Assembly (NCBI GenBank): GCA_001899855.1
Contig: MKWR01000006.1
Location: 62,001-126,000 of the forward strand
From: Lysobacterales bacterium 63-13
GTDB taxonomy: Bacteria > Pseudomonadota > Gammaproteobacteria > Xanthomonadales > Rhodanobacteraceae
Reading direction: 5' to 3'
DNA length: 64,000 nt
Position numbers and translations under genes: made by a program. Shown one piece after another: positions 32,580-58,212 of the stretch (the stretch's first letter is position 1; the number at the start of each line of letters is the position of its first letter). The notes below the pieces were generated by a model that was given only the letters and a program-made list of their open reading frames with translations, was not told where the DNA came from and did no database searches.

Positions 32580-34031
32580 TCAAATCGCAAACAAGTCTAA
32601 CAGTTGATTGACCGGCATCGCTTCGAAGCGTGCCGCATCGGCACTGGCGGCGAGAATCCGGGAGACATTCTGCGCCGGAAGCTGCGCCGTGATCGCCGCC
32701 TCGAACTTCTTCAGCAAGACCGGAATGCCCTCGTCGCGGCGCTTGCGGTGCCCGATCGGATAATCGATGGAAACCTTGGCCGTGCTTGTTCCGTCATTGA
32801 AGAACACCTGCAGCGAATTGCCGATGTAGCGCTTTTCGGGATCGAAATAGTCCTTGGTGAACTGCGGATTTTCCTTGACCGTCATCTTCGCGCGCAGGGC
32901 GTCGATGCGCGGATCCGCGGCGACGTCATCATTGTAGTCATCAGCGACCAGGCGTCCGAAAATCAGCGGCACGGCAACCATGTACTGGATGCAATGATCG
33001 CGATCAGCGTAGTTGGCCAGCGGGCCGGTCTTGTCGATGATGCGCACGCCCGCTTCCTGGGTCTCGATCTCGATGCGCGCGATCTCGTCGATGCGCGAGC
33101 CGACTTCGCCATGCAGTTGCATGGCGCATTCAACCGCGGTCTGCGCATGGAACTCGGCGGGAAAGCTGATCTTGAACAACACGTTCTCCATGACATAGCT
33201 GCCAAACGGGCGCTCGAACTCGAACTGCTTGCCCTTGAACGCAATGTCATAGAAACCCCAGGTTTTCGCCGACAACGCCGATGGATAGCCGACGACATTC
33301 TTGTCGACTGCGTTGAAGGCATGGGTCACGGCGCGACGGCAGGCATCACCAGCTGCCCAGCTCTTGCGCGGCCCGGTGTTTGGTGCGTGCCGGTAGGTAC
33401 GCAGGACGCCGTTGTCGATCCAGCTGTGCGAAATGGCATTGATGATCTGCTCGCGGGTGCCGCCGAGCATGGCCGTGGCCACGGCGGTCGAGGCCAGGCG
33501 AACGAGGATCACATGGTCCAGGCCGACGCGGTTGAAGCTGTTCTTCAGGGCATAGCAGCCCTGGATCTCGTGCGCCTTGATCGCCCAGCCGAGGACATCG
33601 CGAACGCTCAGCGGCTTGCCGCCTTCGCGCTCGGCCTTGCGCGACAGGTAGTCGGCAACGGAGAGGATGGCCCCGAGGTTGTCGGACGGATGGCCCCATT
33701 CGGCAGCCAGCCAGGTGTCGTTGAAATCCAGCCAGCGGATCTGCGTGCCGATGGCGAATGCAGCCTGCACCGGATCGAGTTCATGGCTGGTTCCCGGCAC
33801 GCGCACGCCGCCCGGCAGCACGGCACCAGGGACGACCGGGCCGAGATGCTTGACGCAATCGGGGAACTTCATCGCCAGCATCGAAGTGGCCAGCGAATCG
33901 AGCAGCATGTAGCGCGCCGTGGCATAGGCTTCGGGCGAATCTATGACGTAATCGGCAATGTAGTTGGCGATATCGACCATGGGCTGATCGGGATCCGGCC
34001 GAACGGCCGAGCGGATGTCATGTCCGGACAT
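32580..34031 (-). CDS. prpD: 2-methylcitrate dehydratase PrpD (MmgE/PrpD family)
   Basis: PrpD dehydrates 2-methylcitrate to 2-methyl-cis-aconitate in propionate breakdown. The product, 483 residues, has the same length as the Escherichia coli enzyme. It contains the MmgE/PrpD core: RYMLLDSLATSMLAM, FNDTWLAAEWGHPSDNLGAIL, and NTGPRKSWAAGDACRRAV. The start at MSGHDIRSAVRP is the one that resembles the family; the open frame upstream does not. It is about 6 kb from prpC and prpB on the same strand, and divergent from fadH. No acnD, prpF or prpR is visible here. Confidence 0.92.
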   Translation of the reverse strand: MSGHDIRSAVRPDPDQPMVDIANYIADYVIDSPEAYATARYMLLDSLATSMLAMKFPDCVKHLGPVVPGAVLPGGVRVPGTSHELDPVQAAFAIGTQIRWLDFNDTWLAAEWGHPSDNLGAILSVADYLSRKAEREGGKPLSVRDVLGWAIKAHEIQGCYALKNSFNRVGLDHVILVRLASTAVATAMLGGTREQIINAISHSWIDNGVLRTYRHAPNTGPRKSWAAGDACRRAVTHAFNAVDKNVVGYPSALSAKTWGFYDIAFKGKQFEFERPFGSYVMENVLFKISFPAEFHAQTAVECAMQLHGEVGSRIDEIARIEIETQEAGVRIIDKTGPLANYADRDHCIQYMVAVPLIFGRLVADDYNDDVAADPRIDALRAKMTVKENPQFTKDYFDPEKRYIGNSLQVFFNDGTSTAKVSIDYPIGHRKRRDEGIPVLLKKFEAAITAQLPAQNVSRILAASADAARFEAMPVNQLLDLFAI

Positions 34032-34229
34032 GGGGGAGTTCCGTTGGGTTGGGAAGCATGTGCACGCGCCGGGGCGCTGTTGCAGCCCGCTATTGTGCCA
34101 GATGGCCATCGGGAAGCCGACCGGAAAACCACTCGGCATGGTCGGGCGCTTGCCGATCCGCCCTGCCTGGCAATTCCTGGCTTCGATCCCCGCCCGTTGC
34201 GCTTGCCCCGCAGGCGTCCGGCTGGCATC

Positions 34230-36279
<2,050 letters not shown>

Positions 36280-36444
36280 GGCAGGTCCGTCGCGGATCGC
36301 ACTCCGCCGCCATCCACCGCGCCGGTTTGGGAAATTCGTTCGGCGCAAAATGCCAAGCGGTTCACGTTCCACCGCTCGTCCATGTCACGAATCGCCACGG
36401 TTTTGCGATTTAACATCCGCGGAATCTTCAGTGGAGTCGTGGCC

Positions 36445-39330
36445 ATGCCCTGCACAGCGTTTCATCGTGTTTCGATCATTGGCGGCTTGATAGCCGCATT
36501 TTCCACCTCGGCGGCGATCGCGGCAGTCGGCAGTTGGAGCACCACCGGCCCGTACGGCGGCTCGAATTACCTGCTCAAGGTCTACGAGGCCGGCCCCAGC
36601 ACCTTGTTCGCGGCAGGCCGCGGGGGTGTGTTCCGCAGCCTGAGCAGTGGAAACACATGGCAGCGCATCGAGGTTGGCTTGCCGGATGCGATCTATGTGA
36701 ACGCGATGGCGACGAGCACGATTGCACCGGTTGTCTATCTCACCAATTATGTTGGCTTGTATCGAACCGGCAACGGCGGCGACCTGTGGGTACCGATTTC
36801 AACTCCGATGCCAGCAGGAGACGCCATTCTCGATGTCAACGTGCGGCGCGCCACCAGCAACAGCATTGCCATCGCGACCACGGCCGGTGCCTATGTTTCA
36901 ACCAATGCAGGCAGCACCTGGATCGGCCCGGGCGCGACTGGTGCCGGACTCAGCAAGATCGTGTTTGCCGCCGACGGATCGCTGTATCTCGGCATCCAAT
37001 ATGCCGATCCCGGGATTTTCAGCGGCGCGACCCTGCTCAAGAGCACCGATGGCGGCAGCAGTTGGGCGCCACTTGCCACCCAGCCTCCTGCCCTGAATGG
37101 CATTGAACAGCTTTCCGTATCGCCTGCCGATCCACAGCGAATCCTTGCCAGTGACGGGGGCACGGTCGTCACCAGCGGCAATGGTGGCAACACCTGGTCG
37201 ACGGTCAACCTGCCTGAAAGTGGTGCCGGTTGTCGTGGAGTGTTGGCCGTTACGCCGAGCCCTGCCACCGCTGCCGGTGCGTTTGTCGGGTGCTATTCGA
37301 ACGGCGTCCACTTTGCCCCCGATGTGACACTTGCCGCTCCAGCCTGGACGGACTGGACCGCGGCAAATGCACTGACCGCCAACGGAACCGACCCGGTCCA
37401 GGCCAGTGAAATCGCCGTGCATCCCGGCTACCCGACGACACCGACGCTTTGGACTGGAACCGTCGATGCCGGCGTGTTCCGCTCGACAAATGGCGGTGCC
37501 GCCTGGGTACCGGTCAACAATGGCTACCAATCCGCCAACATCCGTGCGCTCGCGCCGCATCCGCTGGATCAGAGCGCATCGGGCGCGGTCCTGCTGGCAG
37601 GCCTCGGCGATGCATTCACGACCTCGACGCCGGTCTACAAGTCCCCGGACGGCGGAGCGAGCTGGGCGGGATCGCTGGGCGGACTCAACGCCGAACAAAT
37701 CCGCTGGATGGTGATCGATCCGACAACCGTCGACAACAACCTGTTCACTACCGAGAACTTCACCGTCTATGCCTCGGGCCGCTCGGAAGGCATTCCCACG
37801 TTGGCAAGCCGCGACGGCGGCATCTACAAGAGCACCGACGCCGGCGCGACCTGGACAACCATCGACAATGGCATTGCCACGGTATCCGGAACGCGCTACC
37901 TGGGTACGGCACGCGCCATCGTGCTGGATCCGCAATCCTGCGCGGCACCGCCCTGCGTTGCTGGCTCGAGCCCGCTGCAAACGCTGTATGTGGCCGGCAG
38001 CGGCGTTCCGGATGGCCCCGGGCTGCCGTATCGCTCCGCACGTGTCTACAAGAGCACCAACGCAGGCGCTTCCTGGGTCGCCTCGGAAAATGGCTTGCCG
38101 ACAACCGAAGACCTTGGGCCGCCCGGAGCGCCCAACTACCTCTACCGGATTGTCGTGCCCCTGGTCATCGACCCCGCCAACCCGTCCACGCTGTACCTGG
38201 GCACGACCACCTCGTGGAACTCCGAGTCATACGGCGGCGTATTCCCGACCGCCGCCAATGGCGTCTTCAAGTCCACCAATGGCGGCGCGACCTGGGTCAA
38301 TTCCAGCAATGGCCTGCCACGATTTGGTGGTGCCGGAACCTCGCACTACGATGTCCTGGCCCTAGCCATCAACCCGGCGAATACGCAGATCCTCTACGCA
38401 GGCGTGACGAGTTTCCAGTACACCGGAGCCGTCGGCAGCATCTACAAGAGCATTGATGGCGGGGCCAACTGGTTCGAAGCCAGCACCGGCATTGCCGGCC
38501 AGGATGTCCGCGCGTTGTTCATCGATACCGCCGACAGCTCCGGCAACACGGTCTATGCCGGCACCGGCGGCAATGGCGCAAACCCCGGCGGCGTCTATCG
38601 CAGTACCGATGGCGGGGTGACCTGGAACTCGCTGAGCCTGGGACTTCCGGCGGACGCCGCCCTCGCCCTGGCCATGCCACCGCGCGCACTGGGCGCGCCG
38701 GCACGCATCATCGCCGGCACCACCGCCGGAGTCTGGGAATACACGGCCACGCCCGACGAGGATTCCGATGGTTCGCCATCGGCCGTCGAAAACAGCGTCC
38801 TGGCAGGTGACGGCAATGGCGATGGCACGCCCGATGCGATGCAATCCAACGTCGCCTCGACCTCCGCAAGCAGTTCCAGTGCAACGGGGACCTCGGCACC
38901 CGCGGGAACGATTGTTCGCACGACGATGGAGATCATCTCGACAGGGTGCAGCCAGCTCAATGACAGCACGACCCAACCCGCCGATCTGTATCCACCCGAT
39001 CCGCTCGACTCGGCATCAGGCCACACCCAGTGGGGACTGGTCCGCTTCTCGCTGCCTGATTGCAGCCAGGCCACCGTTCGCGTCACCTTCCATGGGGCCA
39101 ATTTCGGACCGAGCTGGAAGTGGCGCAATTACGGTCCGCGCATCCCCGGCGATGTAACAACATTCGGCTGGTATTCGTTCGCCGGTGCACGACGCATCGA
39201 TGGGCAAACCTGGGAGCTGAAGATTGATGCCAATCGGCAAGGCAACTATCGGAATGATGCCAACAACATCCTCTTCATCGGTGGCCCTGGCGACCTGCCC
39301 GACTCGATTTTCGACAACGGCTTCGAATGA
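36445..39330 (+). CDS. Large secreted beta-propeller protein with Asp-box repeats and a choice-of-anchor U-like domain
   Basis: The 961-residue product has a signal peptide (residues 8-27, IIGGLIAAFSTSAAIAA). About twelve Asp-box motifs follow, of the form S-T-D-G-G-x-x-W (STDGGSSWAPL, STNGGAAWVPV, SPDGGASWAGS and others), spread over residues 60-750. They indicate one or more BNR/sortilin-like propellers. A calcium-binding-like acidic stretch (DEDSDGSPSAVENS) precedes a C-terminal domain resembling choice-of-anchor U (WGLVRFSLPDCSQATVRVTF to about residue 940). The protein ends DSIFDNGFE, the same type of end as the secreted protease near the end of the window. ATG at 36445 follows GGAG; an ATG 21 codons upstream is the alternative. 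Substrate is unknown. Confidence 0.8.
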   Translation: MPCTAFHRVSIIGGLIAAFSTSAAIAAVGSWSTTGPYGGSNYLLKVYEAGPSTLFAAGRGGVFRSLSSGNTWQRIEVGLPDAIYVNAMATSTIAPVVYLTNYVGLYRTGNGGDLWVPISTPMPAGDAILDVNVRRATSNSIAIATTAGAYVSTNAGSTWIGPGATGAGLSKIVFAADGSLYLGIQYADPGIFSGATLLKSTDGGSSWAPLATQPPALNGIEQLSVSPADPQRILASDGGTVVTSGNGGNTWSTVNLPESGAGCRGVLAVTPSPATAAGAFVGCYSNGVHFAPDVTLAAPAWTDWTAANALTANGTDPVQASEIAVHPGYPTTPTLWTGTVDAGVFRSTNGGAAWVPVNNGYQSANIRALAPHPLDQSASGAVLLAGLGDAFTTSTPVYKSPDGGASWAGSLGGLNAEQIRWMVIDPTTVDNNLFTTENFTVYASGRSEGIPTLASRDGGIYKSTDAGATWTTIDNGIATVSGTRYLGTARAIVLDPQSCAAPPCVAGSSPLQTLYVAGSGVPDGPGLPYRSARVYKSTNAGASWVASENGLPTTEDLGPPGAPNYLYRIVVPLVIDPANPSTLYLGTTTSWNSESYGGVFPTAANGVFKSTNGGATWVNSSNGLPRFGGAGTSHYDVLALAINPANTQILYAGVTSFQYTGAVGSIYKSIDGGANWFEASTGIAGQDVRALFIDTADSSGNTVYAGTGGNGANPGGVYRSTDGGVTWNSLSLGLPADAALALAMPPRALGAPARIIAGTTAGVWEYTATPDEDSDGSPSAVENSVLAGDGNGDGTPDAMQSNVASTSASSSSATGTSAPAGTIVRTTMEIISTGCSQLNDSTTQPADLYPPDPLDSASGHTQWGLVRFSLPDCSQATVRVTFHGANFGPSWKWRNYGPRIPGDVTTFGWYSFAGARRIDGQTWELKIDANRQGNYRNDANNILFIGGPGDLPDSIFDNGFE

Positions 39331-39350
39331 GCAACCCTTGAAAGCGAAGC

Positions 39351-39373
39351 GCCTCGGGACAACATCCCGAGGC
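39351..39373. terminator. Hairpin after the beta-propeller gene
   Basis: GCCTCGGGA and TCCCGAGGC form a perfect 9-base stem with a 5-base loop, 20 bases after the stop codon. Only a weak U-run (TCTTC) follows, so it may be a poor terminator or a 3' stabiliser. It is immediately before the ribosome binding site of the glutathione S-transferase gene. Confidence 0.55.
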
Positions 39374-39393
39374 TCTTCAACAAGGAGTTGTGC

Positions 39394-40002
39394 ATGAAAC
39401 TCTACTGTCTGCCAGGTGCCTGCTCGCTTGCCGACCACATCGTTCTCGAGTGGATCGGCAAGCCCTACGAAATCAGCGTGGTTCCGCGCGATCAACTGAA
39501 AACCAGTTATCTCAAGATCAATCCGAACGGGGCCGTGCCCGCGCTCGAAGTCGATGGCTGGATACTCACGCAGAACGCGGCGATCCTGAATTATCTCGCC
39601 GATGAAAACCCCGCAAGCGGACTGGGCGGCGATGGCTCGGCAAAAAGCCGTGCCGAAATCAATCGCTGGATGGCCTTTGTCAATGCCGACGTGCACCCGG
39701 CATTCAAGCCCCTCTTCGGTACCACCGCCTATCTCGAGGATCCCGCGATGATCGAGAAGAGCAAGGATGCGGCGCGCAAGAGCCTGCGCGGATTGTTCGA
39801 GAAGGCCAATGCCCAGCTTGAAGGACGCGACTGGCTGGCGGGAACGCGGTCAATCGCCGATCCGTACCTGTATGTGGTCTTGCGCTGGGCGCAGGCCTTG
39901 AACATCGACCTTTCCGGATTCGACAACCTGGCTGCCTTCAGCAAGCGCATGGAGAGCGATGCGGCGGTGCAGAAGGTGCTCAAGGAAGAAGGCCTGACCT
40001 GA
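39394..40002 (+). CDS. Glutathione S-transferase, beta class-like
   Basis: The 202-residue protein begins MKLYCLPGACSLADHIVLEW, the bacterial beta-class pattern with the Cys10 glutathione-contact residue, and continues with NPNGAVPALEVDG (the cis-Pro) and LTQNAAILNYLAD. The C-terminal helical domain has the conserved WLAGTRSIADPYLYVVLRW. Such enzymes conjugate glutathione to electrophiles in the cytoplasm. The start is fixed by AAGGAG six bases before the ATG. It stands alone between hairpins. Confidence 0.92.
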   Translation: MKLYCLPGACSLADHIVLEWIGKPYEISVVPRDQLKTSYLKINPNGAVPALEVDGWILTQNAAILNYLADENPASGLGGDGSAKSRAEINRWMAFVNADVHPAFKPLFGTTAYLEDPAMIEKSKDAARKSLRGLFEKANAQLEGRDWLAGTRSIADPYLYVVLRWAQALNIDLSGFDNLAAFSKRMESDAAVQKVLKEEGLT

Positions 40003-40029
40003 GCCGATTACGTTTGGTGCAACAAGCAG

Positions 40030-40052
40030 AAGGCCGCGCACTGCGCGGCCTT
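40030..40052. terminator. Hairpin between convergent gst and prpC
   Basis: AAGGCCGCGC and GCGCGGCCTT form a perfect 10-base stem with a 3-base loop, centred in the 69-base gap between two convergent genes. U-runs are short on both sides; it probably ends transcripts from both directions. Confidence 0.65.
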
Positions 40053-40071
40053 GTGCATTTCCGGATGTGCC

Positions 40072-41220
40072 TCAGCGCTTTTCGATGGGCACGAACTCGA
40101 GATCCTCCGGCCCGGTGTAGTTCGCGCTCGGGCGGATGATCTTGCCGTCGATGCGCTGCTCGATCACGTGCGCGCTCCAGCCAGCGGTGCGCGAGATGAC
40201 GAACAGCGGCGTGAACATCGCCGTCGGCACGCCCATCATGTGGTAGCTGACCGCACTGAACCAGTCGAGGTTCGGGAACATCTTCTTGATTTCCCACATG
40301 GTCGATTCGAGGCGTTCGGCGATGTCGAACATCTTCATGTTCTTCTGCTCGGCCGAGAGATCTCGCGCGACTTCCTTGATCACCTTGTTGCGTGGATCGC
40401 TGACCGTGTAGACCGGATGGCCAAAGCCGATGACGACTTCCTTGCGCGCCACGCGTTCGCGGATGTCGGCTTCGGCCTCGTCGGGCGTGTCGTAGCGCTT
40501 CTGGATCTCGAAAGCGACTTCATTGGCACCACCGTGCTTGGGCCCGCGCAGGGCACCGATGCCGCCGGCAATGCTCGAATACATGTCGCTGCCGGTGCCG
40601 GCAATCACGCGCGATGCAAACGTCGAGGCATTGAACTCATGCTCGGCGTAGAGGATCAGCGAGGTGTGCATGGCGCGCACCCAGGACGCGCTCGGTGATT
40701 TGCCGTGCAGCAGGTGCAGGAAATGCCCGCCGATGCAATCGTCGTCGGTTTCGACATCGATGCGCTTGCCATTGACCGCGAAGTGATACCAGTAGAGCAG
40801 CACCGAGCCGAGCGAAGCCATCAGTCGATCGGCGATGTCGCGCGCACCAGGATGATTGTGATCGTCCTTCTCGGGGAGCACGCAACCGAGGATGGAGACG
40901 CCCGTGCGCAGGACATCCATCGGATGCGCCGACGCCGGGATCTGCTCAAGCGCTGCCTTCAGGGAAGCCGGGATGCCGCGCAGCGACTTCAGCCGGGCCT
41001 TGTACGCCGAGAGCTCAGCCGTGGTCGGCAATTTGCCGTGCACCAGCAGGTGGGCGATTTCCTCGAACTCGCAGGTCGTTGCGACATCGAGGATGTCGTA
41101 ACCGCGATAGTGCAGGTCGTTGCCGGTCTTGCCGACCGTGCACAGGGCGGTGTTGCCGGCAGCGACTCCGGACAGGGCAACGGATTTCTTGGGTTTGAAC
41201 GGGGTCGCTGGTTCGGTCAT
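40072..41220 (-). CDS. prpC: 2-methylcitrate synthase PrpC
   Basis: PrpC condenses propionyl-CoA with oxaloacetate. The 382-residue short citrate-synthase-family protein contains [13 protein letters not shown], the catalytic-His segments [20 protein letters not shown] and [17 protein letters not shown], and the C-terminal [11 protein letters not shown]. Length and the LHGK/HGKSPS region suit 2-methylcitrate rather than citrate synthase; the neighbour prpB confirms it. The ATG follows GGAG. It is 56 bases downstream of prpB in one operon. Confidence 0.93.
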
Positions 41221-41276
41221 TTCATTCTCCACATCGATGATTCGTTGCACGGGCAACGCGGGTTGCCCGCTTGCTC

Positions 41277-42167
41277 TCACTCGTCCTTGCCAGCCGCAAA
41301 CAGCGTATCGAGCTTGCCTTCGTAGGCGTGGTAATCGAGGTAATCGTAAAGCTCGGCGCGCGTCTGCATCTTCGGCACGGCTGCCTTCTGCGTGCCGTCG
41401 CGGCGCACGGTTTCGTAGAAATCGAGCGCGGCCTTGTTCATCGCGCGATAGGCGCCGCAGCAATACAGGACGATGTCGACGCCCGCCGATTTCAGTTCGT
41501 CGGTGGTGAACAGCGGGGTTTGCCCGAACTCGGTGATGTTGGCGAGGATCGGCACCTTCACCGCATCCTTGAACTGGCGATACTGCTCCAGCGTGTAGAT
41601 CGCCTCGGGGAAGATCATGTCGGCACCCGCTTCGACGCAGGCGACCGCACGCTCGATTGCCGCATCGATCCCTTCAACGGCAATCGCATCGGTGCGCGCC
41701 ATGATGACGAATCCGGGATCGTGCCGCGCGTCGACGGCGGCCTTGATGCGATCGACCATTTCCTCTTTTGCCACGATGGCCTTGCCGGGGCGGTGACCGC
41801 AACGCTTGGCCGCAACCTGGTCCTCGATGTGCATTGCCCCTGCCCCGGCCTTGATCATCGAACGCACTGTGCGCGCGATGTTGAACGCGCCACCCCAGCC
41901 GGTATCGACATCGACCAGCAGCGGCAGGTCGCAGACATCGGTGATGCGGCGGATGTCGGTCAGTACGTCTTCCATCGAACTGATGCCGAGATCGGGCATG
42001 CCGAGCGAATTGGCGGCAACGCCGCCACCGGACAGATAGATCGCCTTGAAGCCCGTGCGTTTGGCCATGCGTGCGGCATAGGCGGTGATCGTGCCGACCA
42101 CCTGCAAGGGCTGTTCCTCGGCGACGGCCGCGCGGAAACGCGCGCCTGCGGATGCGGGCTGGCTCAT
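41277..42167 (-). CDS. prpB: 2-methylisocitrate lyase PrpB
   Basis: PrpB cleaves 2-methylisocitrate to pyruvate and succinate. The 296-residue product of the PEP mutase/isocitrate lyase family shows [18 protein letters not shown], the Mg-site DVDTGWGG, and the catalytic loop KRCGHRPGK, where the Cys is the active-site acid. The length matches Escherichia coli PrpB (296). It begins the prpB-prpC pair. No regulator such as PrpR is adjacent; the next gene upstream is nhaA on the same strand, 132 bases away. Confidence 0.95.
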
Positions 42168-49202: not shown

Positions 49203-49685
49203 ATGCCTTCATTCGACATTGTTTCCAAACTCGATTCGCACGAATTGACCAACGCGGTCGACCAGGCCAGCCGCGAACTTGACAAGCGATTCGACTTCAA
49301 GGGCAGCGGCGCGAGTTTCGAGCTCAATGATGGCGTCGTCGTGCTCAAGGCCGACGCCGAATTCCGCCTCAAGCAGATGCAGGACATCCTGCTGCAGCGC
49401 CTCAGCGCACGCGGCATCGATGTGCGCTGCGTCGATATCGCCGACCCGGACGTCAATCTCGCCAGCGCACGCCAGAACGTCACCCTCAGACAAGGCATCG
49501 AACAGGCACTGGCGAAGAAGATCATCAAGCTGATCAAGGATTCCGGCAGCAAGGTGCAGGCGCAGATCCAGGGCGACCAGCTCCGCGTCACCGGCAAGAA
49601 GCGCGACGAGCTGCAGGACACGATCGCCCTGCTGCGCAAGAGCGAACTGGAAATGCCGCTGCAGTTCGAGAACTTCCGCGATTAG
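49203..49685 (+). CDS. yajQ: YajQ family nucleotide-binding protein
   Basis: The 160-residue protein (MPSFDIVSKLDSHELTNAVDQ) is a typical YajQ/UPF0234 member with two ferredoxin-like folds. In Xanthomonas a YajQ protein binds cyclic di-GMP and affects virulence genes, so a similar role is possible. The DFKGSGASFELND, DIADPDVNLAS and KIIKLIKDSGSKVQAQIQGDQLRV segments are conserved. It converges on the kinase gene with a four-base overlap. Confidence 0.94.
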   Translation: MPSFDIVSKLDSHELTNAVDQASRELDKRFDFKGSGASFELNDGVVVLKADAEFRLKQMQDILLQRLSARGIDVRCVDIADPDVNLASARQNVTLRQGIEQALAKKIIKLIKDSGSKVQAQIQGDQLRVTGKKRDELQDTIALLRKSELEMPLQFENFRD

Positions 49686-52600
49686 TGCGTGTTCCGCGCG
49701 ACCAGTTGCGCGACCAGTGAACGCAGGGCCAGTGGCTTCAGCGGTTTGTGCAGGAGCTGGCAACCGGCCGCGGCAACGGCGTCGGCGACCGCCTTGCCAT
49801 GATCGGCAGTGATGATGACGCACGGAATCGAGGCGGCAACCGGACCCAGCGCGGCGCGAAGTTCGAGTCCGCTGACGTTGTCGTCGAGGTGGTAGTCGAG
49901 CAGCAGCAGGTCGGCACCATGCGTCGCATGCAGGCGGCAGGCATCGGCCGGGGTCTGCGCGGCATGGACATCGGCGTTCCAGCCGGCAATCAGGTCCTGC
50001 ATGGCCCTGAGCACGGCGGGATCATTGTCGACGACGAGCACGCGCAAGCGCGGCAGTGGCGGTTCCGCTGCTTTGGCCTCCGGCGGCGGCAGATCCATCG
50101 GCGTGGCCATCGGCACCTCGATTGCAAAGACCGAGCCGCGGCCAATCCGTGAATCAAGGCGCAGGCGATGATCGAGCAGGCGCGCGATGCGCTCGGCAAT
50201 CGCCAGACCCAGCCCCAACCCTTCGCCGGAATGCCCGAGGCGGCGGAACTCCTCGAAGATCAATTCCTTGTCGGCTTCGGCAATGCCCGGACCGGTATCC
50301 CAGACCTCGATCGAGAGATGCCGGCCGCGACGGCGGCAGCCAAGCAGGATTCGTCCCGAGCGCGTGTGGCGCACGGCATTGGCGAGGAAATTCTGCACGA
50401 CCCGGCGCAACAATTGCGGATCGCTGCGCAGCCACGCCCGTGAAGCCACCCAATCCAGTTGCAGGCCGCGTTCTCCTGCCAGCATCCTGAATTCCGCAGC
50501 CAGGCTGCGCAGCCATTCATCGATCGCGAAGACCTCGAACCTGGCCCGCGTGCGCCCGCCATCCAGCCGTGAAATATCGAGGAGGCCGCCGAGCAGGCTT
50601 TCCGCCGAAGTCAGCGCGCCATCGATATTCGTGATCGACTCGCGGTACTCGGCATGGGCGAGGCGCTGCGCAAGCGCATGCGTGAACAGGTGCGCCGCGT
50701 TCAGCGGCTGGGCAAGATCGTGGCTGATCGCCGCGAGGAAGCGGGATTTCGCCTGGTTGGCCTTTTCCGCCTCCTGGCGGGCGAGATCCAGTTCCGAAGT
50801 ACGTTCGCTGACGCGCTGCTCCAGGGTCTCGGCGACGATCTTCAGCTCGCTTTCGTTGCGGCGGAATTCCGTGACATCGGTGAAGGTCGCGACGAAGCCG
50901 CCGCCCGGCATCGGATTGCCGCGGATCTCCACCACGCGCTCCCCGTTGCTGCCAGGAAAGCGCCTCTCGGCGACGTACGGCGTGCCGGCACGCATGTGCT
51001 CGATGCGCTTGCGCACCTCATCGTCGACGCGCTGACCGTCCGCGCCAAGTCCATGGGCGAGATTCCAGCGCACCAGATCGGCCACCGGCACGCCGACCCT
51101 CAGCAGCTCTGGCGGATACCCGAACAATCCGGCATAGGTTCGATTCCATGCCACCAGGCCGAGGTCGCGGTCGACCACGCTGATGCCCTGGCTCATGTTC
51201 TCTAGTGCCGCTTCGAGGACACGTTGATTGAAGCGCAGATCCTGCGAGGTCTCGCCGACAATGTCGGCAACCGCCTCCAGTTCGTCCGTTTGCTCGCGGC
51301 GGGCGACGGTCAGCAGCAGGCGTGCCGACGACGCGCCGATCACCGCTGCCAGCTCATGTTCGATGGCGGCGACCAGCGCTTCCGAGGCCGAGGCAGCGGA
51401 ATCGGCGCCGACGAACAACATCTGCACGTGCTCGGCGGGCAGGAAGCGCGAAGACAGGGCGCGCAGGTCGGCAACACCGACACGGCCACGCATGCCCGCC
51501 GAGGCCCGCTTGGCGAAACGCGACCCGGCGACCAGCATGAGCACGCCGATGTTCGCGGCCAGACTCACCACCACTGCCCGCGCCAGGCGGCTCCAGTCGC
51601 CAAGCCCGAACAAGTGATCCGGTGCCAGCCATTGCTTGCCGAAGGGTCCGCTCTCGATCCACGGCATGGATTGGCCGGCAAGCAGGGGCAGCATCAACAC
51701 ATAGACCCAGATCAGGCTGCCGACGACGAGTCCGGCACTCACCGCGCGCGCACCGGTCTGCGGCCGGTACACCGCGACCAGCACGCCCGGCGCAATGGCC
51801 GACAAGGCCGAAAACGACACCGCGCCAATATCGGCCAGGGCCGCGTTGGCGACCAGCACGCGACTGTAGACCCACGCCAGCAACACCACGACGAGGATGA
51901 TCAGGCGCCGCTGCATCAGCACCTCCGAACGCAGGTCGCCGCCATCGCTGGCACGACCCCAACCCGCGCGCACGCGCAGCGGCGCGATCCAGTGGTTGCC
52001 GATCATCAGGCTCAGGGCCAGGGTCGCCACGACAACCATGCTGGTGGCCGCACTCAGTCCACCGAGAAAGGCCATCAGGGCGAGTGCGCCATGACCCTGC
52101 GCCAGCGGCAAGGCCAGCACGTACAGGTCTGAGGGCACGCCCATCGGCCCGAGCAGCGCTTGACCGGCATGCGCCAGCGGCAGCAGCGGCAGCGCGATCA
52201 ACAACATGTACAAGGGGAAAACCCAACGCGCCGTGCGCACATGCTGCGCATCGCGGCACTCGACGACGCCGGCGTGGAATTGATGCGGCAAGGTGAAGAC
52301 CGCCAGCGCACCCAGCAGGATCAGCGGCGGGAAACCCGAGGTGCCGCCCGGCTCGGCGGCCACTTCGGCAGTCGCTGCCGGAACCTCGAGGCCAAACCAG
52401 ACCAGCGCACCCAGTGCCAGCATGGCCACCAGCTTGAACAACGATTCGAACGCCATGGCCAGCACGAGGCCACGATTGTGTGCGTTGGCGCTGGCCCGGC
52501 GGGCACCGAACAACATGGCGAACAAGGCCATCGCCAAGGCCACCCACAGCGCGCTGTCCTGCCAGGCGGGTGCGGCAAGATCATGGCGACGCGCAAGCAT

Positions 52601-53026
52601 GCCGTAACTCATCGCCACCGATTTCAACTGCAGGGCAACGTAGGGAATGATGCCGATGATGGCGACCGCCGTGACCAGCGCTGCTAGCAGCGGACTGCGA
52701 TCAAGGCGAATCGCGATCAGGTCGGCCAGCGAACTGCTGTTGTGCGCGCGCGCGATCGTCACCAGGCGCATGAGCAGGCCAATGCCGAAGACATACAGCA
52801 GGATCGTGCCGACAAAGGTCGGCGGCAGCCACCAGCCCGAGCGCAAGGCCTGGGTGACCGTGCCGTAGAAGGTCCACGACGTGCAATAGACGGCAAGCGA
52901 CAAGGCGTAGATATATGCCCAGTGCCTGGCGAAAATCTGCGGGCGGCGGTCGCCCAGCACGGCCACGCCAAACAACACGCCGAGCCAGAGTACGCCGGCG
53001 GCGAGAATGCTCAGGTCAGGCAGCAT
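49682..53026 (-). CDS. Hybrid histidine kinase with sodium:solute symporter domain
   Basis: The 1114-residue protein joins a transporter-like sensor to a kinase, as in CbrA and MxtR of Pseudomonas. Residues 1-500 hold about 13 membrane helices of the SSS (PutP-like) fold, for example YCTSWTFYGTVTQA and GGLSAATSMVVVATLALSLM. A PAS domain (about 603-722) precedes HisKA with His769 (AAISHDLAQPLNAAH), an ATPase domain (870-975; WDTGPGIAE, GEGLGLGLAIAERIA), and a C-terminal receiver (993-1114) with Asp1044 (LLLDYHLDDN). Its separate response regulator is not in the window. It lies 284 bases downstream of the depolymerase gene, same strand, but likely has its own promoter. Confidence 0.9.
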   Translation of the reverse strand: MLPDLSILAAGVLWLGVLFGVAVLGDRRPQIFARHWAYIYALSLAVYCTSWTFYGTVTQALRSGWWLPPTFVGTILLYVFGIGLLMRLVTIARAHNSSSLADLIAIRLDRSPLLAALVTAVAIIGIIPYVALQLKSVAMSYGMLARRHDLAAPAWQDSALWVALAMALFAMLFGARRASANAHNRGLVLAMAFESLFKLVAMLALGALVWFGLEVPAATAEVAAEPGGTSGFPPLILLGALAVFTLPHQFHAGVVECRDAQHVRTARWVFPLYMLLIALPLLPLAHAGQALLGPMGVPSDLYVLALPLAQGHGALALMAFLGGLSAATSMVVVATLALSLMIGNHWIAPLRVRAGWGRASDGGDLRSEVLMQRRLIILVVVLLAWVYSRVLVANAALADIGAVSFSALSAIAPGVLVAVYRPQTGARAVSAGLVVGSLIWVYVLMLPLLAGQSMPWIESGPFGKQWLAPDHLFGLGDWSRLARAVVVSLAANIGVLMLVAGSRFAKRASAGMRGRVGVADLRALSSRFLPAEHVQMLFVGADSAASASEALVAAIEHELAAVIGASSARLLLTVARREQTDELEAVADIVGETSQDLRFNQRVLEAALENMSQGISVVDRDLGLVAWNRTYAGLFGYPPELLRVGVPVADLVRWNLAHGLGADGQRVDDEVRKRIEHMRAGTPYVAERRFPGSNGERVVEIRGNPMPGGGFVATFTDVTEFRRNESELKIVAETLEQRVSERTSELDLARQEAEKANQAKSRFLAAISHDLAQPLNAAHLFTHALAQRLAHAEYRESITNIDGALTSAESLLGGLLDISRLDGGRTRARFEVFAIDEWLRSLAAEFRMLAGERGLQLDWVASRAWLRSDPQLLRRVVQNFLANAVRHTRSGRILLGCRRRGRHLSIEVWDTGPGIAEADKELIFEEFRRLGHSGEGLGLGLAIAERIARLLDHRLRLDSRIGRGSVFAIEVPMATPMDLPPPEAKAAEPPLPRLRVLVVDNDPAVLRAMQDLIAGWNADVHAAQTPADACRLHATHGADLLLLDYHLDDNVSGLELRAALGPVAASIPCVIITADHGKAVADAVAAAGCQLLHKPLKPLALRSLVAQLVARNTH

Positions 53027-53310: not shown

Positions 53311-54402
53311 CTATTCCAGTGGTGCGCCAAGGGCCGCTGCGGCGTTGGCCAGCCAACGCAACTGCACGCCCTGGCGCGTATCGTAATCCGGCCCGGAATA
53401 ACCCCACCAGTCCCAACATGCCTTTGGATTCAATGGCGCATAGCTTGCGCGGGTCTGAGGATATAGCACGACCAGGTGCCGGGCATCTGCCCAACGGTTG
53501 TAGCCGGTATCGCGGGCGAATGCCTCGCCAATGGCATCGGCATTCTGCTGGCAGCCATGCAGGGCGATATGCAGGCCGCAGGTTTCGCCGGCGGCGCAGG
53601 ATTTAGGCACATAGACGAAACCGATGTCGGCCAGCATCGCGTCCTTTCCATCCGGCAGATAGGCCTCTTGATCGAAGCGGCGCAGCTCGCCCCCGGCCGT
53701 GGCCGGTGCCGCCGGCTTTTCCGCATACAGCGCGGCGAGCAGTTCGCCTGCACCATCGAAGCCGCACTTGCCGATGAACGGCATGGCGCTGTCCGTGCAT
53801 TCCGTGCCGGTGGCATCGGTCGGGAAGGTATGTGCCATCGCGCGGTCATTGTCTTCCCCGACCTGCGCGACACCAAGCTTGCGATAGAACTCCGCCGCCG
53901 CCGCGCTGATTGCCGTGCCCACCGCCGCATCCAGCGTGCCGTGCATGACAAACACCTTGTCGCCGGCCATGCCCTCAAGCGGCGCAATCGCGCCACTTCC
54001 GGCCCGCGATCTTGCATTCCCGACCAGGGCATCGACATCAGGCAGGTTGTCCGCTGCCGGATTGAGGCAGCGCGACAATGCGGTTTCAAGGTTGCCTTGC
54101 GCACAGCCATACGGCCCCCCGGCGATCATGGCGACCCCGGCGACATGGCTGGAGAAGGCCATATGAACCTGGGTCGCCATGTACGCACCGGACGACAGCC
54201 CCGAAACTGTCGTCCGCGTTGCATCCAGGTTGAGTTTGGGCAGCGGCATTCCCGCACCTGCGGGCTTGCTGACGCACGCGCCCAGCCCCATCCCGGCCAG
54301 GCAAACCAGGGACGTGGCGAGTGCCAGCCTGGCCGGCGAGGACACGCGCCGCCGGCCCGATGCTTTCTTCGTCACGCCGCGCAAGCGAGTCGAGTCCACC
54401 AT
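53311..54402 (-). CDS. Polyhydroxybutyrate depolymerase-like lipoprotein esterase
   Basis: The 363-residue product probably cleaves PHB or its oligomers outside the inner membrane. A lipobox LGAC (Cys43) marks it as a lipoprotein, with no Asp at +2, which favours the outer membrane. The alpha/beta hydrolase appears circularly permuted, as in the Penicillium funiculosum PHB depolymerase. The nucleophile box comes first (GLSSGAYMA, Ser70), then Asp158 in VMHGTLDAAV and His191 in AHTFPTD. The oxyanion motif comes late (IALHGCQQ, Cys284). Its start shares one base with the stop of the TonB receptor gene, so the two are co-translated. Substrate is inferred from family and context. Confidence 0.82.
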   Translation of the reverse strand: MVDSTRLRGVTKKASGRRRVSSPARLALATSLVCLAGMGLGACVSKPAGAGMPLPKLNLDATRTTVSGLSSGAYMATQVHMAFSSHVAGVAMIAGGPYGCAQGNLETALSRCLNPAADNLPDVDALVGNARSRAGSGAIAPLEGMAGDKVFVMHGTLDAAVGTAISAAAAEFYRKLGVAQVGEDNDRAMAHTFPTDATGTECTDSAMPFIGKCGFDGAGELLAALYAEKPAAPATAGGELRRFDQEAYLPDGKDAMLADIGFVYVPKSCAAGETCGLHIALHGCQQNADAIGEAFARDTGYNRWADARHLVVLYPQTRASYAPLNPKACWDWWGYSGPDYDTRQGVQLRWLANAAAALGAPLE

Positions 54403-56639
54403 CAGAAGTTGTACCGCGCGGTCAAATAGTAATTGCGCGGCATGGCGTAGTAGGCGGTCTGGATGTTGCCGACACTGCTGAATTCCTGGGCATCGGTCTT
54501 GTACAGCTTGTCGGTCAGGTTGCGTACGCCGGCACGCACTTGCCACTTGTAATCGGCCGAATCCCAGATTCCGAACAGGCCGACGGTGGTGAAGGCATCC
54601 TGGGTCAGCACATCGCGGTTGTCGACGCTGAGCCAGCTCTTGGCGCGATAGGAAACATCGCCGCCGAAGGTCAGGCTGCCGGCATCGCCAAGGCCGAAGA
54701 TATGGCTGGCGGCGATGCGCGAGGTCCACTTTGGCGAAAATGGCACATGGTCATGCAGGCCGGCCAGCGCCGGGACCGTGACCACGCGCGGATCGTTGAA
54801 CTCGCCATAGCGCGCATCCAGCCAGCCGACCTGCGCCGACAGGCGGGTGCCTTCGCCAACCATGGCGACGCCTTCGAACTCGATGCCATCGACCTTGACC
54901 TTGGCCGCGTTGAGCACCGGGAAGCTGCCAACCACCTCGCCACTCACACGCGCCTGGAAATCATCGTAATTGCTGTGGAACGCGGTGATGTTGCCGAGCA
55001 GGCGACCATCGTCCGAGCTCATCTTCAGGCCCATCTCATAGGTCCACACGGTTTCCGGATCGAATTCCGGGCGGGTCGCTTCGGCCACCGCATTGGCGCG
55101 ACCATTGAAGCCGCCGGACTTGAAGCCCTTGTTCGCCGAGACATAACCCATCACCCGATTCGAGAACTCCTTCTGCAGGCTCAGCGATGGCGTGACCGCG
55201 GTCCACGACTTGCTCGCGTCGAAAGCCACGGTTCCATTCAGGGAGGCAAACGCCGGGCCCCAGAACGTGCTGGTGGTGCGGTCGTAATCCTTGGTCTCAC
55301 GCGTGTAGCGCACGCCGGCACCGAGCGTCCACGACGGTGCGAATTCCCAGTTGACCTGGCCATAGGCCGCCGTGCTGCGCGTGGTCAGATCATCCCCGAT
55401 TGTGCGCAGGAAGGTGATGGGCGAACCGGCCAGCGCATACAGGTCATCGGCATACGCCTCCTGATGTGAAGGCACATGCTCGCGCAGGAAATACAGGCCG
55501 TAGGTCGCGTGCAGGTTGCCGCCGTTGTCGAACTGCGCCTGCAGCTCCTGACTGAACTGGTCCTGGTGGAAGCCGACGAACACGTCGCCCAGTTCGAATT
55601 CCGAGGCATCGATGTCGATGTAGGACTTGCTCGCCAACTCGCGATACGCGGTGATGCTCTTCAGCGACCAGGCGTCCGAAAGCGACCAGGTCAGCGCTGC
55701 CGAGCCACCCTTGTGGATCAGCATCTGGCCCTTGTCGCTGCCAAACGAGGTGCGCGTGCGATAGTCGTAGTCTTCGGTCGGCGACGGATGCAGCACGATC
55801 GCACCCAGCGCGACATCGGTCTGGATCAAGGGCGCTTCGGGATTGCCGAGGGTGAGGGCGTTGTCCTGGTGGGTGTAGTCAAGCGAGAACGCGGCCTTGA
55901 AACTGTCACTCGGGTTGCCGACCAACTTCAGGCGTATGGCCTGGGTGTTGTCATCGTTGTAATGCCGGCGCGTGGCCGGATCCTTCACATAACCATCATT
56001 GCCGCTGCTGACAATTGCCGCGCTGAGTCCCCAGGTGTCGCTGAGTGGCGTTGCCGCATAGGCCTTGGCCTCAAGCAGGCCGAAGCTGCCGGCGCTGATT
56101 TCGACACTGCCGGCGGTTTCCTGGCCGGGATCCCTGGTCACCACCTTGATCGCGCCACCGGTCGAGTTCTTGCCGTACAGGGTGCCCTGCGGACCGCGCA
56201 ACACTTCGATGTGGTCGACGTCATAGAGCTTGAACAAGGCTCCCTGGATGCGCGAGTAGTAGACGTCGTCGACGTACATGCCGACACCGGGATCAAAGGT
56301 CTGCAACGCATCGGGTTGGCCGATGCCGCGAATGAACACGTTGACCGACGACGCCGAGCCACGTCCCTGGACGATGTTCATGTTCGGCACGCTGCCTTGC
56401 AGGCTGTCGATGTTGTTGGCCTGCATTTCGACGAGGTCGGCATCGCTGAATGCGCTGACGGCGACGGGCACTTCCTGCAGGGTTTCCTCGCGCCGGCGTG
56501 CGGTGACCACGATTTCGTCGAGACGCGCGGTCTCCTTGCCGGAAGGATTGGCGGGCTCCGGCGTGTCTTGCTGGGCCTGCGCCATCGCCGACATGCCGAC
56601 GAGCAAGCCGATTGCAAGACTCAAGTGCGTACGTTTCAT
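54402..56639 (-). CDS. TonB-dependent outer-membrane receptor
   Basis: The 745-residue receptor imports a bulky ligand across the outer membrane with TonB energy. It has a signal peptide (LAIGLLVGMSAMAQA), the TonB box EIVVTARRREE, a plug domain (VNVFIRGIGQPDALQTFDPGVG, then EVLRGPQGTLYGKNSTGG), and a 22-strand barrel ending in a typical terminal strand (YYLTARYNF, last residue Phe). Coupling to the PHB-depolymerase-like gene suggests hydroxybutyrate oligomers as ligand rather than iron or vitamin B12. It is divergent from the GntP permease gene. Confidence 0.9.
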   Translation of the reverse strand: MKRTHLSLAIGLLVGMSAMAQAQQDTPEPANPSGKETARLDEIVVTARRREETLQEVPVAVSAFSDADLVEMQANNIDSLQGSVPNMNIVQGRGSASSVNVFIRGIGQPDALQTFDPGVGMYVDDVYYSRIQGALFKLYDVDHIEVLRGPQGTLYGKNSTGGAIKVVTRDPGQETAGSVEISAGSFGLLEAKAYAATPLSDTWGLSAAIVSSGNDGYVKDPATRRHYNDDNTQAIRLKLVGNPSDSFKAAFSLDYTHQDNALTLGNPEAPLIQTDVALGAIVLHPSPTEDYDYRTRTSFGSDKGQMLIHKGGSAALTWSLSDAWSLKSITAYRELASKSYIDIDASEFELGDVFVGFHQDQFSQELQAQFDNGGNLHATYGLYFLREHVPSHQEAYADDLYALAGSPITFLRTIGDDLTTRSTAAYGQVNWEFAPSWTLGAGVRYTRETKDYDRTTSTFWGPAFASLNGTVAFDASKSWTAVTPSLSLQKEFSNRVMGYVSANKGFKSGGFNGRANAVAEATRPEFDPETVWTYEMGLKMSSDDGRLLGNITAFHSNYDDFQARVSGEVVGSFPVLNAAKVKVDGIEFEGVAMVGEGTRLSAQVGWLDARYGEFNDPRVVTVPALAGLHDHVPFSPKWTSRIAASHIFGLGDAGSLTFGGDVSYRAKSWLSVDNRDVLTQDAFTTVGLFGIWDSADYKWQVRAGVRNLTDKLYKTDAQEFSSVGNIQTAYYAMPRNYYLTARYNF

Positions 56640-56727
56640 CGTGTTTCCCTTTCTCGTGATGGGGCAGTCGGGGCCGACCGCGGGCAGAATGGCCGCAGAC
56701 TAGCGGCATCGACAAACGGCCGACACT

Positions 56728-56741
56728 TGTACCTTGGTACA
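56728..56741. promoter_or_regulatory. Palindrome in the receptor/permease divergent promoter
   Basis: TGTACCTTGGTACA is an inverted repeat of TGTACC around a two-base centre, with further partial symmetry outside (CAC on the left, GTG on the right). It lies 88 bases upstream of the receptor gene and 73 upstream of the permease gene, where an operator for both would be expected. The cognate regulator is not visible in the window. Confidence 0.45.
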
Positions 56742-56814
56742 GTGGGCTGGCCGGGAATGGCTGCCGATACTGCGCAGCCGCAGCGAGTTGCGCGTTGCCG
56801 TATGGAGTCCATGG

Positions 56815-58212
56815 ATGTCCCTGCTGATCGTGTTGGCCGCGCTGGCGTTCCTGATGTTTGTCGCCTATCGCGGCTACAGCGTGATCCTTTTCGCGCCCAT
56901 CGCCGCGCTCGGTGCGGTGCTGCTGACCGATCCGGCCCTGGTCGCGCCGATGTTCACCGGCCTGTTCATGGACAAGATGGTCGGCTTCCTCAAGCTGTAC
57001 TTCCCGGTGTTCCTGCTCGGCGCGGTCTTCGGCAAGCTGATCGAGATCTCCGGATTCTCGAAATCGATTGTCGCCGCGACCATCCGCGTGGTTGGCGCAC
57101 AACGGGCAATGCTGTCGATCGTGCTGGTCTGCGCCCTGCTCACCTATGGCGGCGTGTCCTTGTTCGTCGTCGTCTTTGCCGTGTATCCGTTTGCCGCCGA
57201 GCTGTTTCGCCAGAGCGACATTCCCAAGCGCCTGATCCCCGGCACGATTGCGCTCGGCGCATTCACCTTCACCATGGATGCCCTGCCCGGCACGCCGCAG
57301 ATCCAGAACATCATCCCGGCTCCGTTCTTTGGCACCACCAGTTGGGCGGCGCCGGTACTCGGCACGCTTGGCGGCATCTTCATCCTGATCGTCGGCATGC
57401 TCTACCTTGAATCGCGTCGCCGTCGCGCCGTGCGAAACGGCGAAGGTTATGGCGACAACCTGCTCAACGAGCCGATTGCGTTTGCCGGCGAAAAGCTTGC
57501 CCACCCGCTGATCGCGATCCTGCCCCTGCTGCTGGTCGGCGTCGCCAACTTCCTGCTCACCCGCTGGATTCCCGGGTTCTACGGCGAGACCCAGTCGTTT
57601 GTTCCATCGGTGATCGGCTCACCGGCTCCGGTGGTGCAGGAGGTCTCGAAGATCGCCGCAATCTGGGCCGTGCAAGGTGCCTTGCTGATCGGCATCGTCT
57701 GCGTGTTCGTCTTTGCCTGGCGCAATGTCGTGGCCAGCTTTGCCGAAGGCAGCAAGAGCGCAATCAACGGCTCCCTGCTGGCCTCGATGAACACCGCTTC
57801 CGAATACGGTTTCGGCGCGGTGATCGCGGCCTTGCCAGGTTTCCTCGCAGTCGCCACGGCGCTGAAGGCAATTCCGGATCCACTGGTCAACGAAGCGGTT
57901 TCAGTCACCGCGCTGGCCGGCATCACCGGCTCGGCATCCGGCGGCATGAGCATCGCCCTGGCAGCAATGGCCGACAGCTTCATCGCCAATGCCAACGCCG
58001 CCGGCATTCCGATGGAAGTCCTCCATCGCGTCGCCGCGATGGCATCCGGCGGCATGGACACCCTGCCGCACAATGGCGCGGTCATCACCCTGCTGGCGGT
58101 GACCGGCCTCAGCCATCGGCAGAGTTACAAGGACATTTTCGCCATCACCCTGATCAAGACGACATCGGTCTTCGTCATCATCGGCCTGTTCTACCTGACC
58201 GGCTGGGTTTGA
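56815..58212 (+). CDS. GntP family permease, possible hydroxybutyrate transporter
   Basis: The 465-residue membrane protein has about twelve helices and GntP family motifs, including GALTYGGVSLFVVVF-like (ALLTYGGVSLFVVVF) and the conserved MASGGMDTLPHNGAVITLLA. In Pseudomonas, GntP-type proteins next to hydroxybutyrate dehydrogenase are 3-hydroxybutyrate permeases. Here the neighbour is a PHB-depolymerase-like gene, which points the same way, although gluconate or another small acid cannot be excluded. The ATG at 56815 is chosen because it follows GGAG at seven bases; the open frame runs 27 codons further. Confidence 0.8.
   Translation: MSLLIVLAALAFLMFVAYRGYSVILFAPIAALGAVLLTDPALVAPMFTGLFMDKMVGFLKLYFPVFLLGAVFGKLIEISGFSKSIVAATIRVVGAQRAMLSIVLVCALLTYGGVSLFVVVFAVYPFAAELFRQSDIPKRLIPGTIALGAFTFTMDALPGTPQIQNIIPAPFFGTTSWAAPVLGTLGGIFILIVGMLYLESRRRRAVRNGEGYGDNLLNEPIAFAGEKLAHPLIAILPLLLVGVANFLLTRWIPGFYGETQSFVPSVIGSPAPVVQEVSKIAAIWAVQGALLIGIVCVFVFAWRNVVASFAEGSKSAINGSLLASMNTASEYGFGAVIAALPGFLAVATALKAIPDPLVNEAVSVTALAGITGSASGGMSIALAAMADSFIANANAAGIPMEVLHRVAAMASGGMDTLPHNGAVITLLAVTGLSHRQSYKDIFAITLIKTTSVFVIIGLFYLTGWV

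Follow-up and report, generated by a model that had tools for sequence, protein, structure and literature searches.

A probable utilisation locus for poly(3-hydroxybutyrate), with a TonB-dependent receptor and a depolymerase, in Lysobacterales bacterium 63-13

In the polysaccharide utilisation loci of the SusC/SusD type, and in the carbohydrate loci that surround TonB-dependent receptors in Xanthomonas, genes for a receptor, a depolymerising enzyme, an inner-membrane transporter and a sensor lie together. TonB-dependent receptors also take up carbon in the polyethylene-glycol operons of sphingomonads. The uptake of poly(3-hydroxybutyrate) (PHB) fragments too large for porins is, to our knowledge, an open step in Gram-negative bacteria. 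We analysed a 64,000-nucleotide stretch of Lysobacterales bacterium 63-13 (contig MKWR01000006.1, positions 62,001 to 126,000; "the window", whose own numbering is used below) that carries a locus with the same combination of receptor, depolymerising enzyme, inner-membrane transporter and sensor genes; here, however, the polymer would be a polyester, and no SusD-like family was found in the five window proteins scanned.

A TonB-dependent receptor for a lignin-derived aromatic is likewise reported to serve carbon uptake (PMC6874591). It and the polyethylene-glycol receptors are alike in importing carbon rather than iron or vitamins, but their substrates are other ones and neither is a polyester fragment. 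In a paper on rubber (PMC5979037), TonB-dependent receptors are named as possible fatty-acid importers. No report of TonB import of PHB or hydroxybutyrate oligomers was found in searches of the open-access PMC library, judged largely by title, and a word search of a 2024 review of TonB substrates (PMC11658791) gave no mention of hydroxybutyrate, polyester or polyhydroxy.

The locus is arranged as follows: a gene for a 745-residue TonB-dependent receptor (54402-56639, minus strand), the proposed importer of 3-hydroxybutyrate (3HB) oligomers, is followed on the same strand by a gene for a 363-residue single-domain type-2 short-chain-length polyhydroxyalkanoate (PHA) depolymerase with a lipobox (53311-54402), hereafter the esterase, and the receptor stop and esterase start have the single base 54402 in common (TGATG on the minus strand). 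Behind the esterase, again on the minus strand, lies a gene for a 1114-residue CrbS/MxtR-like hybrid histidine kinase (49682-53026). A gene for a 465-residue GntP-like permease, proposed to take up 3HB across the inner membrane, is divergent from the receptor (56815-58212, plus strand), and between these two stands the inverted repeat TGTACCTTGGTACA (56728-56741, no strand), a candidate operator of both divergent promoters. The first-pass annotation had described the one-base overlap and the divergent permease, both of which are present as it stated, and had read the locus as one for PHB scavenging; it had omitted the kinase and the repeat. We conclude that this is probably a utilisation locus for PHB and its oligomers, a function that the conserved gene linkage supports.

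The esterase, which the earlier annotation called depolymerase-like, is so by sequence and by fold. NF050059, which models type-2 short-chain-length PHA depolymerases in NCBIfam, gives it 347.7 bits (cut-off 280). In the PDB it is matched best by the sequences of a PHB depolymerase, 2d80 (E 2.8e-49), and of the S39A mutant of that enzyme, 2d81 (E 9e-49), and its predicted model (mean pLDDT 82) matches only these two structures in Foldseek at E <= 0.001, 2d80 being the best (E 3.5e-26, TM-score 0.82 on the target). Residues S70, D158 and H191 align with the Ser-Asp-His triad of 2d80 and 2d81, the serine being marked by the S39A change in 2d81; we take the Asp and His of 2d80 to have their triad roles, and W332 presumably matches its subsite tryptophan. 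All four residues are invariant across 17 aligned esterases (16 of the 22 named esterases described below and that of the window). Fold, triad, subsite tryptophan and single-domain plan are thus those of the type-2 depolymerase of Penicillium funiculosum (2d80; 2d81 with an R3HB trimer), but the window's esterase gene overlaps a TonB-dependent receptor gene and has a sensor kinase gene behind it. Its substrate is probably PHB. From the putative start, the ATG at 54402, the predicted protein has a signal-like N-terminus with a hydrophobic stretch and then the lipobox L40-G41-A42-C43, and it would act in or outside the envelope, a surface-lipoprotein location being possible.

The receptor passes the Pfam cut-offs for both plug (PF07715, 64.4 bits) and barrel (PF00593, 142.1 bits), and near its N-terminus is the sequence DEIVVTA, TonB-box-like by eye, of which V45, T46 and A47 are invariant in 17 aligned rows. 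Against the TonB-siderophore model TIGR01783 it scores 172.5 bits, below the cut-off of 223.5.

Is the pairing of receptor and esterase more than an accident of one genome? Conservation of gene order had been set beforehand as a test of the scavenging reading, and we surveyed 200 genomes of the order, in 52 of which the esterase was found at E <= 1e-20. In all of the best 30 of these 52 loci (own genome included), a co-directional receptor gene immediately precedes that of the esterase, and 29 of them have a kinase match downstream within a 1.5 kb flank. The genome of strain 63-13 holds 13 TonB-dependent receptor barrel matches, about 0.4% of an estimated ~3,300 genes, so adjacency in 30 of 30 loci is more than chance would give. 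When larger stretches around all 52 esterases were examined, a receptor was present in 47 and directly upstream, by open reading frame (ORF) ends, in 26; four more (L036, L037, L038 and L075) were masked by over-long ORFs and are direct in the analysis of the best 30. The 26 direct loci contain the kinase (26), the permease (25), a LuxR-type regulator (21), a 3HB-oligomer hydrolase (21), a class-2 lipase (10) and a 3HB dehydrogenase (6). One relative, L078, has an oligomer hydrolase of 402 bits against 3HBOH PF10605 and a 3HB dehydrogenase of 342.6 bits against TIGR01963 (cut-off 307) as neighbours. Its class-2 lipase (L078:14333-15313), whose kin are those counted in the 10 loci, has weak similarity to PhaZ7 (48.1 bits, cut-off 450).

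Receptor homologues also occur in the order without the esterase, and 30 stretches around such places were taken (L118-L147, some places being left aside). The permease is present in 21 of them, the kinase in 14, the oligomer hydrolase in 11 and the dehydrogenase in 9, and a single stretch (L141) has none of these. In genus g37, each of the 11 genomes that have the receptor, all of them esterase-free, carries it immediately ahead of a co-directional 3HBOH gene, with the dehydrogenase and sometimes the permease behind 3HBOH. The hydrolase of L143 scores 500.9 bits with PF10605, and its divergent regulator is TetR by Pfam; a further locus, L148 (chosen for its 3HBOH), has the order TetR, divergent from receptor, GntP, 3HBOH and 3HB dehydrogenase. 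Because the receptor keeps these 3HB genes where the esterase is absent, its tie appears to be with 3HB oligomers and not solely with the esterase.

A scan of GTDB species genomes with a receptor profile gave at least 587 confirmed matches, of which the best 80 ("named loci") were mapped. They were divided, after the map had been seen, into 41 loci of Xanthomonad-type gammaproteobacteria, judged by title or neighbourhood, and 39 others. In this survey and in those of the order, counts of dehydrogenase, kinase, regulator and permease come from uncurated hidden Markov models (HMMs) built on these loci, some proteins having also been scanned against Pfam and NCBIfam, and some loci represent the same genome met twice (e.g. 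L133 and L233). The 41 contain the permease in 37 (36 divergent; same strand in L175), the kinase in 30, the oligomer hydrolase in 23, the esterase in 22, the regulator in 21 and the dehydrogenase in 10; esterase or hydrolase is present in 32, and none of the 41 lacks all four of esterase, hydrolase, dehydrogenase and permease. All 22 esterase genes follow the receptor gene in the same direction, and the catalytic region begins no more than 340 nt beyond the receptor stop in 21 of them and at 908 nt in L227. Strains of Dyella, Rhodanobacter, Luteibacter, Arenimonas and Coralloluteibacterium are among the named isolates with receptor and esterase together. Linkage to a hydroxybutyrate dehydrogenase, which the first-pass annotation had proposed to check, thus holds in part of the relatives, and linkage to the oligomer hydrolase is stronger in both surveys (21/26 and 23/41, against 6/26 and 10/41).

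In the genome of strain 63-13 the sole 3HBOH match is on contig 14, where (L116:5791-13152) a second TonB-dependent receptor directly precedes it and PhaE (PF09712, 169.7 bits) and a PhaC-like gene, which falls just short of the PhaC_N cut-off, follow. This receptor is one of the 13 matches and belongs to another type, unrelated to the locus receptor in the tree described below. The genome therefore has two receptor-hydrolase pairs, and both hydrolases fall in 3HB-polyester families. The contig 14 run joins genes of PHB breakdown and PHB synthesis.

Pfam finds PAS, HisKA, HATPase and receiver domains in the kinase, and residues 5-498 of the protein match chain 10ed_A, named a histidine kinase (E 2.4e-49), with an SLC5-like membrane part; Pfam SSF gave no match in the kinase, nor did BLAST of the membrane part against one SSS symporter. 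With NF041832, the NahK/ErcS family, it scores 398.3 bits and so misses the cut-off of 400 by 1.7 bits. Its make-up fits the CrbS/MxtR plan given in PMC5715377. The LuxR-type ErdR/CrbR-like regulator of L078 scores 214.9 bits against NF041830 (cut-off 390), and two CrbR-like regulators in the genome of strain 63-13, on contigs 30 and 14, are 56 and 52% identical to it. The likeness to the CrbS/CrbR (MxtR/ErdR) acetate system thus lies in the kinase plan, the LuxR-type regulator of relatives and a repeat ahead of the -35 region, but here the setting is a 3HB polyester locus and the NCBIfam scores are below their cut-offs.

The repeat TGTACCTTGGTACA is the sole TGTAC-N4-GTACA in the window and the sole site at one mismatch or fewer in the 3.75 Mb genome. 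In 81 intergenic regions of 50-1500 bases between divergent receptor and permease genes, the repeat, in the form TGTACSAAGGTACA, is matched exactly in 44, with at most one mismatch in 59 and with at most two in 70. Shuffled sequences reached two mismatches or fewer in 3 of 1,620 cases; these shuffles preserve base composition only, related loci were counted singly and the motif itself came from these sequences, so the statistics are weaker than they appear. A scan of 3.14 Mb of fetched loci by seed prefixes, which can miss sites, found 66 sites with at most one mismatch, 63 of them ahead of a receptor; of the other three, one is between an oligomer hydrolase and a dehydrogenase and two are unassigned, one of which lies by the cut receptor of L209. 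The best match has 4-6 mismatches in all 12 loci of the TetR type or of the different esterase operon described below, and in all 39 loci outside the Xanthomonad-type group. By eye, -10-like hexamers for both promoters stand 24-25 bases from the repeat on either side: TAGTCT for the receptor (56697-56702, minus strand; conserved column pattern TAnncT) and GATACT for the permease (56766-56771, plus strand; conserved pattern agt.tc). According to PMC5715377, CrbR activation needs an ACTU motif at -52 to -36, just ahead of the promoter; the ACTU site TAATACTAAGGTCGTCT has TACnAAGGT in common with TGTACSAAGGTACA, and other ACTU sites, such as the acs site TACTACCATCGTCGAAT, are less like it. We treat the repeat as a candidate site for a CrbR-like regulator and no more.

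These parts suggest the following scheme. The depolymerase would cut PHB to 3HB oligomers, either extracellularly or within the envelope, as a lipoprotein here and as an apparently plain exported protein in many relatives; these oligomers would cross the outer membrane through the receptor; a 3HB-oligomer hydrolase that is exported and often lipoprotein-like (on contig 14 here, adjacent in many relatives) would yield 3HB; the GntP-like permease would carry this into the cytoplasm; and a 3HB dehydrogenase (on contig 31 here, adjacent in some relatives) would oxidise it. The CrbS-like kinase and a CrbR-like LuxR regulator may activate both divergent promoters through the central inverted repeat.

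A number of observations weigh against such a scheme, and the first of them concern the permease. In the profile search of the genome it scores only 13.6 bits with GntP PF02447 (cut-off 22.5), and hmmscan gave no Pfam or NCBIfam match for it. Its predicted model (mean pLDDT 77) finds MleN-, TRAP- and DASS-type transporters in Foldseek at TM-scores of 0.4-0.66, values so modest that the fold backs an ion-transporter superfamily and nothing narrower. The gene is divergent and kept in relatives, and its counterpart in L148 (L148:8037-9338) passes PF02447 with 34.3 bits, but its own score is below threshold and we name it GntP-like only. (Its alignment comprises 15 of the 37 named permeases and that of the window.) No demonstration of a GntP-type permease taking up 3HB was found in one literature search, and so the proposed uptake of 3HB rests on linkage.

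Further points on the same side come from the enzymes and from gene distribution. The esterase is without a separate substrate-binding domain. The lipoprotein of the first-pass annotation is present in the window as a lipobox, but as a conserved trait it is rejected: by a strict rule only 18 of 70 esterases (the window's included) have a lipobox, as have 31 of 65 oligomer hydrolases; by eye there are further lipoprotein-like members of both, others are of the ordinary exported type, and a few hydrolases have no signal. In this genome neither 3HBOH (contig 14) nor the sole 3HB dehydrogenase over its cut-off (contig 31) is linked to the locus. In the order survey the other 22 of the 52 esterases lie in a different operon with no receptor directly upstream; they are 36-44% identical to the window's esterase and many stand beside an acyl-CoA ligase, alpha/beta hydrolases and TetR-like genes, with a receptor elsewhere in the stretch in 17 and none in 5, four of these on stretches of ~10 kb or less. 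Nine of the 41 Xanthomonad-type loci have neither esterase nor 3HBOH within 10 kb, and in the other 39 of the 80 named loci esterase, GntP, kinase, regulator, dehydrogenase and 3HBOH are all absent within 10 kb at the thresholds set. Finally, import by the receptor is the step of most value in the scheme and the one with least direct proof, it being gene order that points to transport. The scavenging interpretation of the first-pass annotation is supported by the conserved linkage; its lipoprotein step is not conserved, and its account included neither kinase nor operator.

All but three of the 39 loci that fall outside the Xanthomonad-type group bear alphaproteobacterial titles; the three are L231 (Woeseiaceae) and the untyped Pseudomonadota L210 and L212. 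In the 39, TetR-like neighbours are frequent (both of the two scanned are TetR by Pfam) and an alpha/beta hydrolase is present in six. Either PHB specificity does not extend to the whole receptor family, or the linkage has been lost in alphaproteobacteria. A tree of 110 receptors built by a quick method, from which L209 was excluded (receptor < 600 aa), bears on the same question. It places the locus receptors in two pure groups separated by starred branches, and alphaproteobacterial homologues lie between and around them; background receptors of this genome are on long branches and are flagged as such. A single-clade origin of the locus receptors is unsupported, since the starred branches force two changes, so either receptors came to occupy the slot on two occasions or the other homologues have lost the linkage. 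In loci L178-L208 (sphingomonads, Caulobacteraceae and others) the receptor homologues are 41-48% identical and often have a divergent TetR-like gene, and some are near an alpha/beta hydrolase.

The proposal that the receptor imports 3HB oligomers has to be weighed against one in which hydrolysis is completed outside the cell, the small products enter through porins and the receptor carries some other cargo useful during growth on PHB, such as a metal or a vitamin. Since the products of the esterase gene and of many 3HBOH genes are exported, monomers could arise outside the cell, and the sub-threshold TIGR01783 score leaves room for another receptor substrate. We nonetheless consider this unlikely: the receptor stays beside 3HBOH, the dehydrogenase or the permease where the esterase is gone, receptors of three different types, judged by the tree, adjoin 3HB-polyester hydrolases, and the repeat sits between the receptor and the permease.

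A different ester as the substrate of esterase and receptor, be it some other polyester or an ester of a 3-hydroxyacid, with the 3HB genes serving its products, seems to us quite improbable. Esterase relatives from other families of the order do stand beside acyl-CoA ligases, hydrolases and FabG/FabH-like genes, and the alphaproteobacterial receptor homologues are without 3HB genes, but the strong type-2 depolymerase model and the PHB-depolymerase fold match argue against it, and the oligomer hydrolase and dehydrogenase belong to families of 3HB enzymes. Iron uptake does make use of receptor-esterase pairs, and iron and vitamin B12 receptors are among the PDB matches of the receptor, but a siderophore locus with a trilactone esterase is hardly credible and was rejected, for both model and fold make the esterase a PHA depolymerase, its neighbours are 3HB genes and the siderophore model is not passed, although no search for siderophore synthesis genes or Fur boxes was made.

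Three other groups of genes were seen in passing. Loci L041-L061 (order families f5, f8 and f9) hold depolymerases in the other operon, many of them with acyl-CoA ligase, alpha/beta hydrolases and FabG- or FabH-like and TetR-like genes and with a receptor and a major facilitator superfamily (MFS) transporter near; perhaps this operon is a second polyester or 3-hydroxyacid pathway. A large subtilase gene (PF00082; 58748-62533), with a weak C-terminal MAM-like match, adjoins the permease. About 11 kb from the locus, positions 32580-42167 carry genes of the MmgE/PrpD, citrate-synthase and PEP-mutase/ICL families, which look by eye like a methylcitrate (propionate) set and could matter for poly(3-hydroxybutyrate-co-3-hydroxyvalerate) (PHBV).

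Returning to PHB utilisation, we lean slightly towards regarding the locus as a dedicated TonB-driven polyester system, in which receptors were recruited more than once for PHB oligomers and a sensor derived from CrbS/CrbR was re-purposed from acetate to PHB breakdown and works through one locus-specific operator that separates receptor and permease. If the receptor does import 3HB oligomers, TonB-dependent transport would gain a polyester class of substrate. PHB users would then be recognisable by this gene set together with its operator, and the capture of oligomers could be studied as it has been in the polysaccharide loci.

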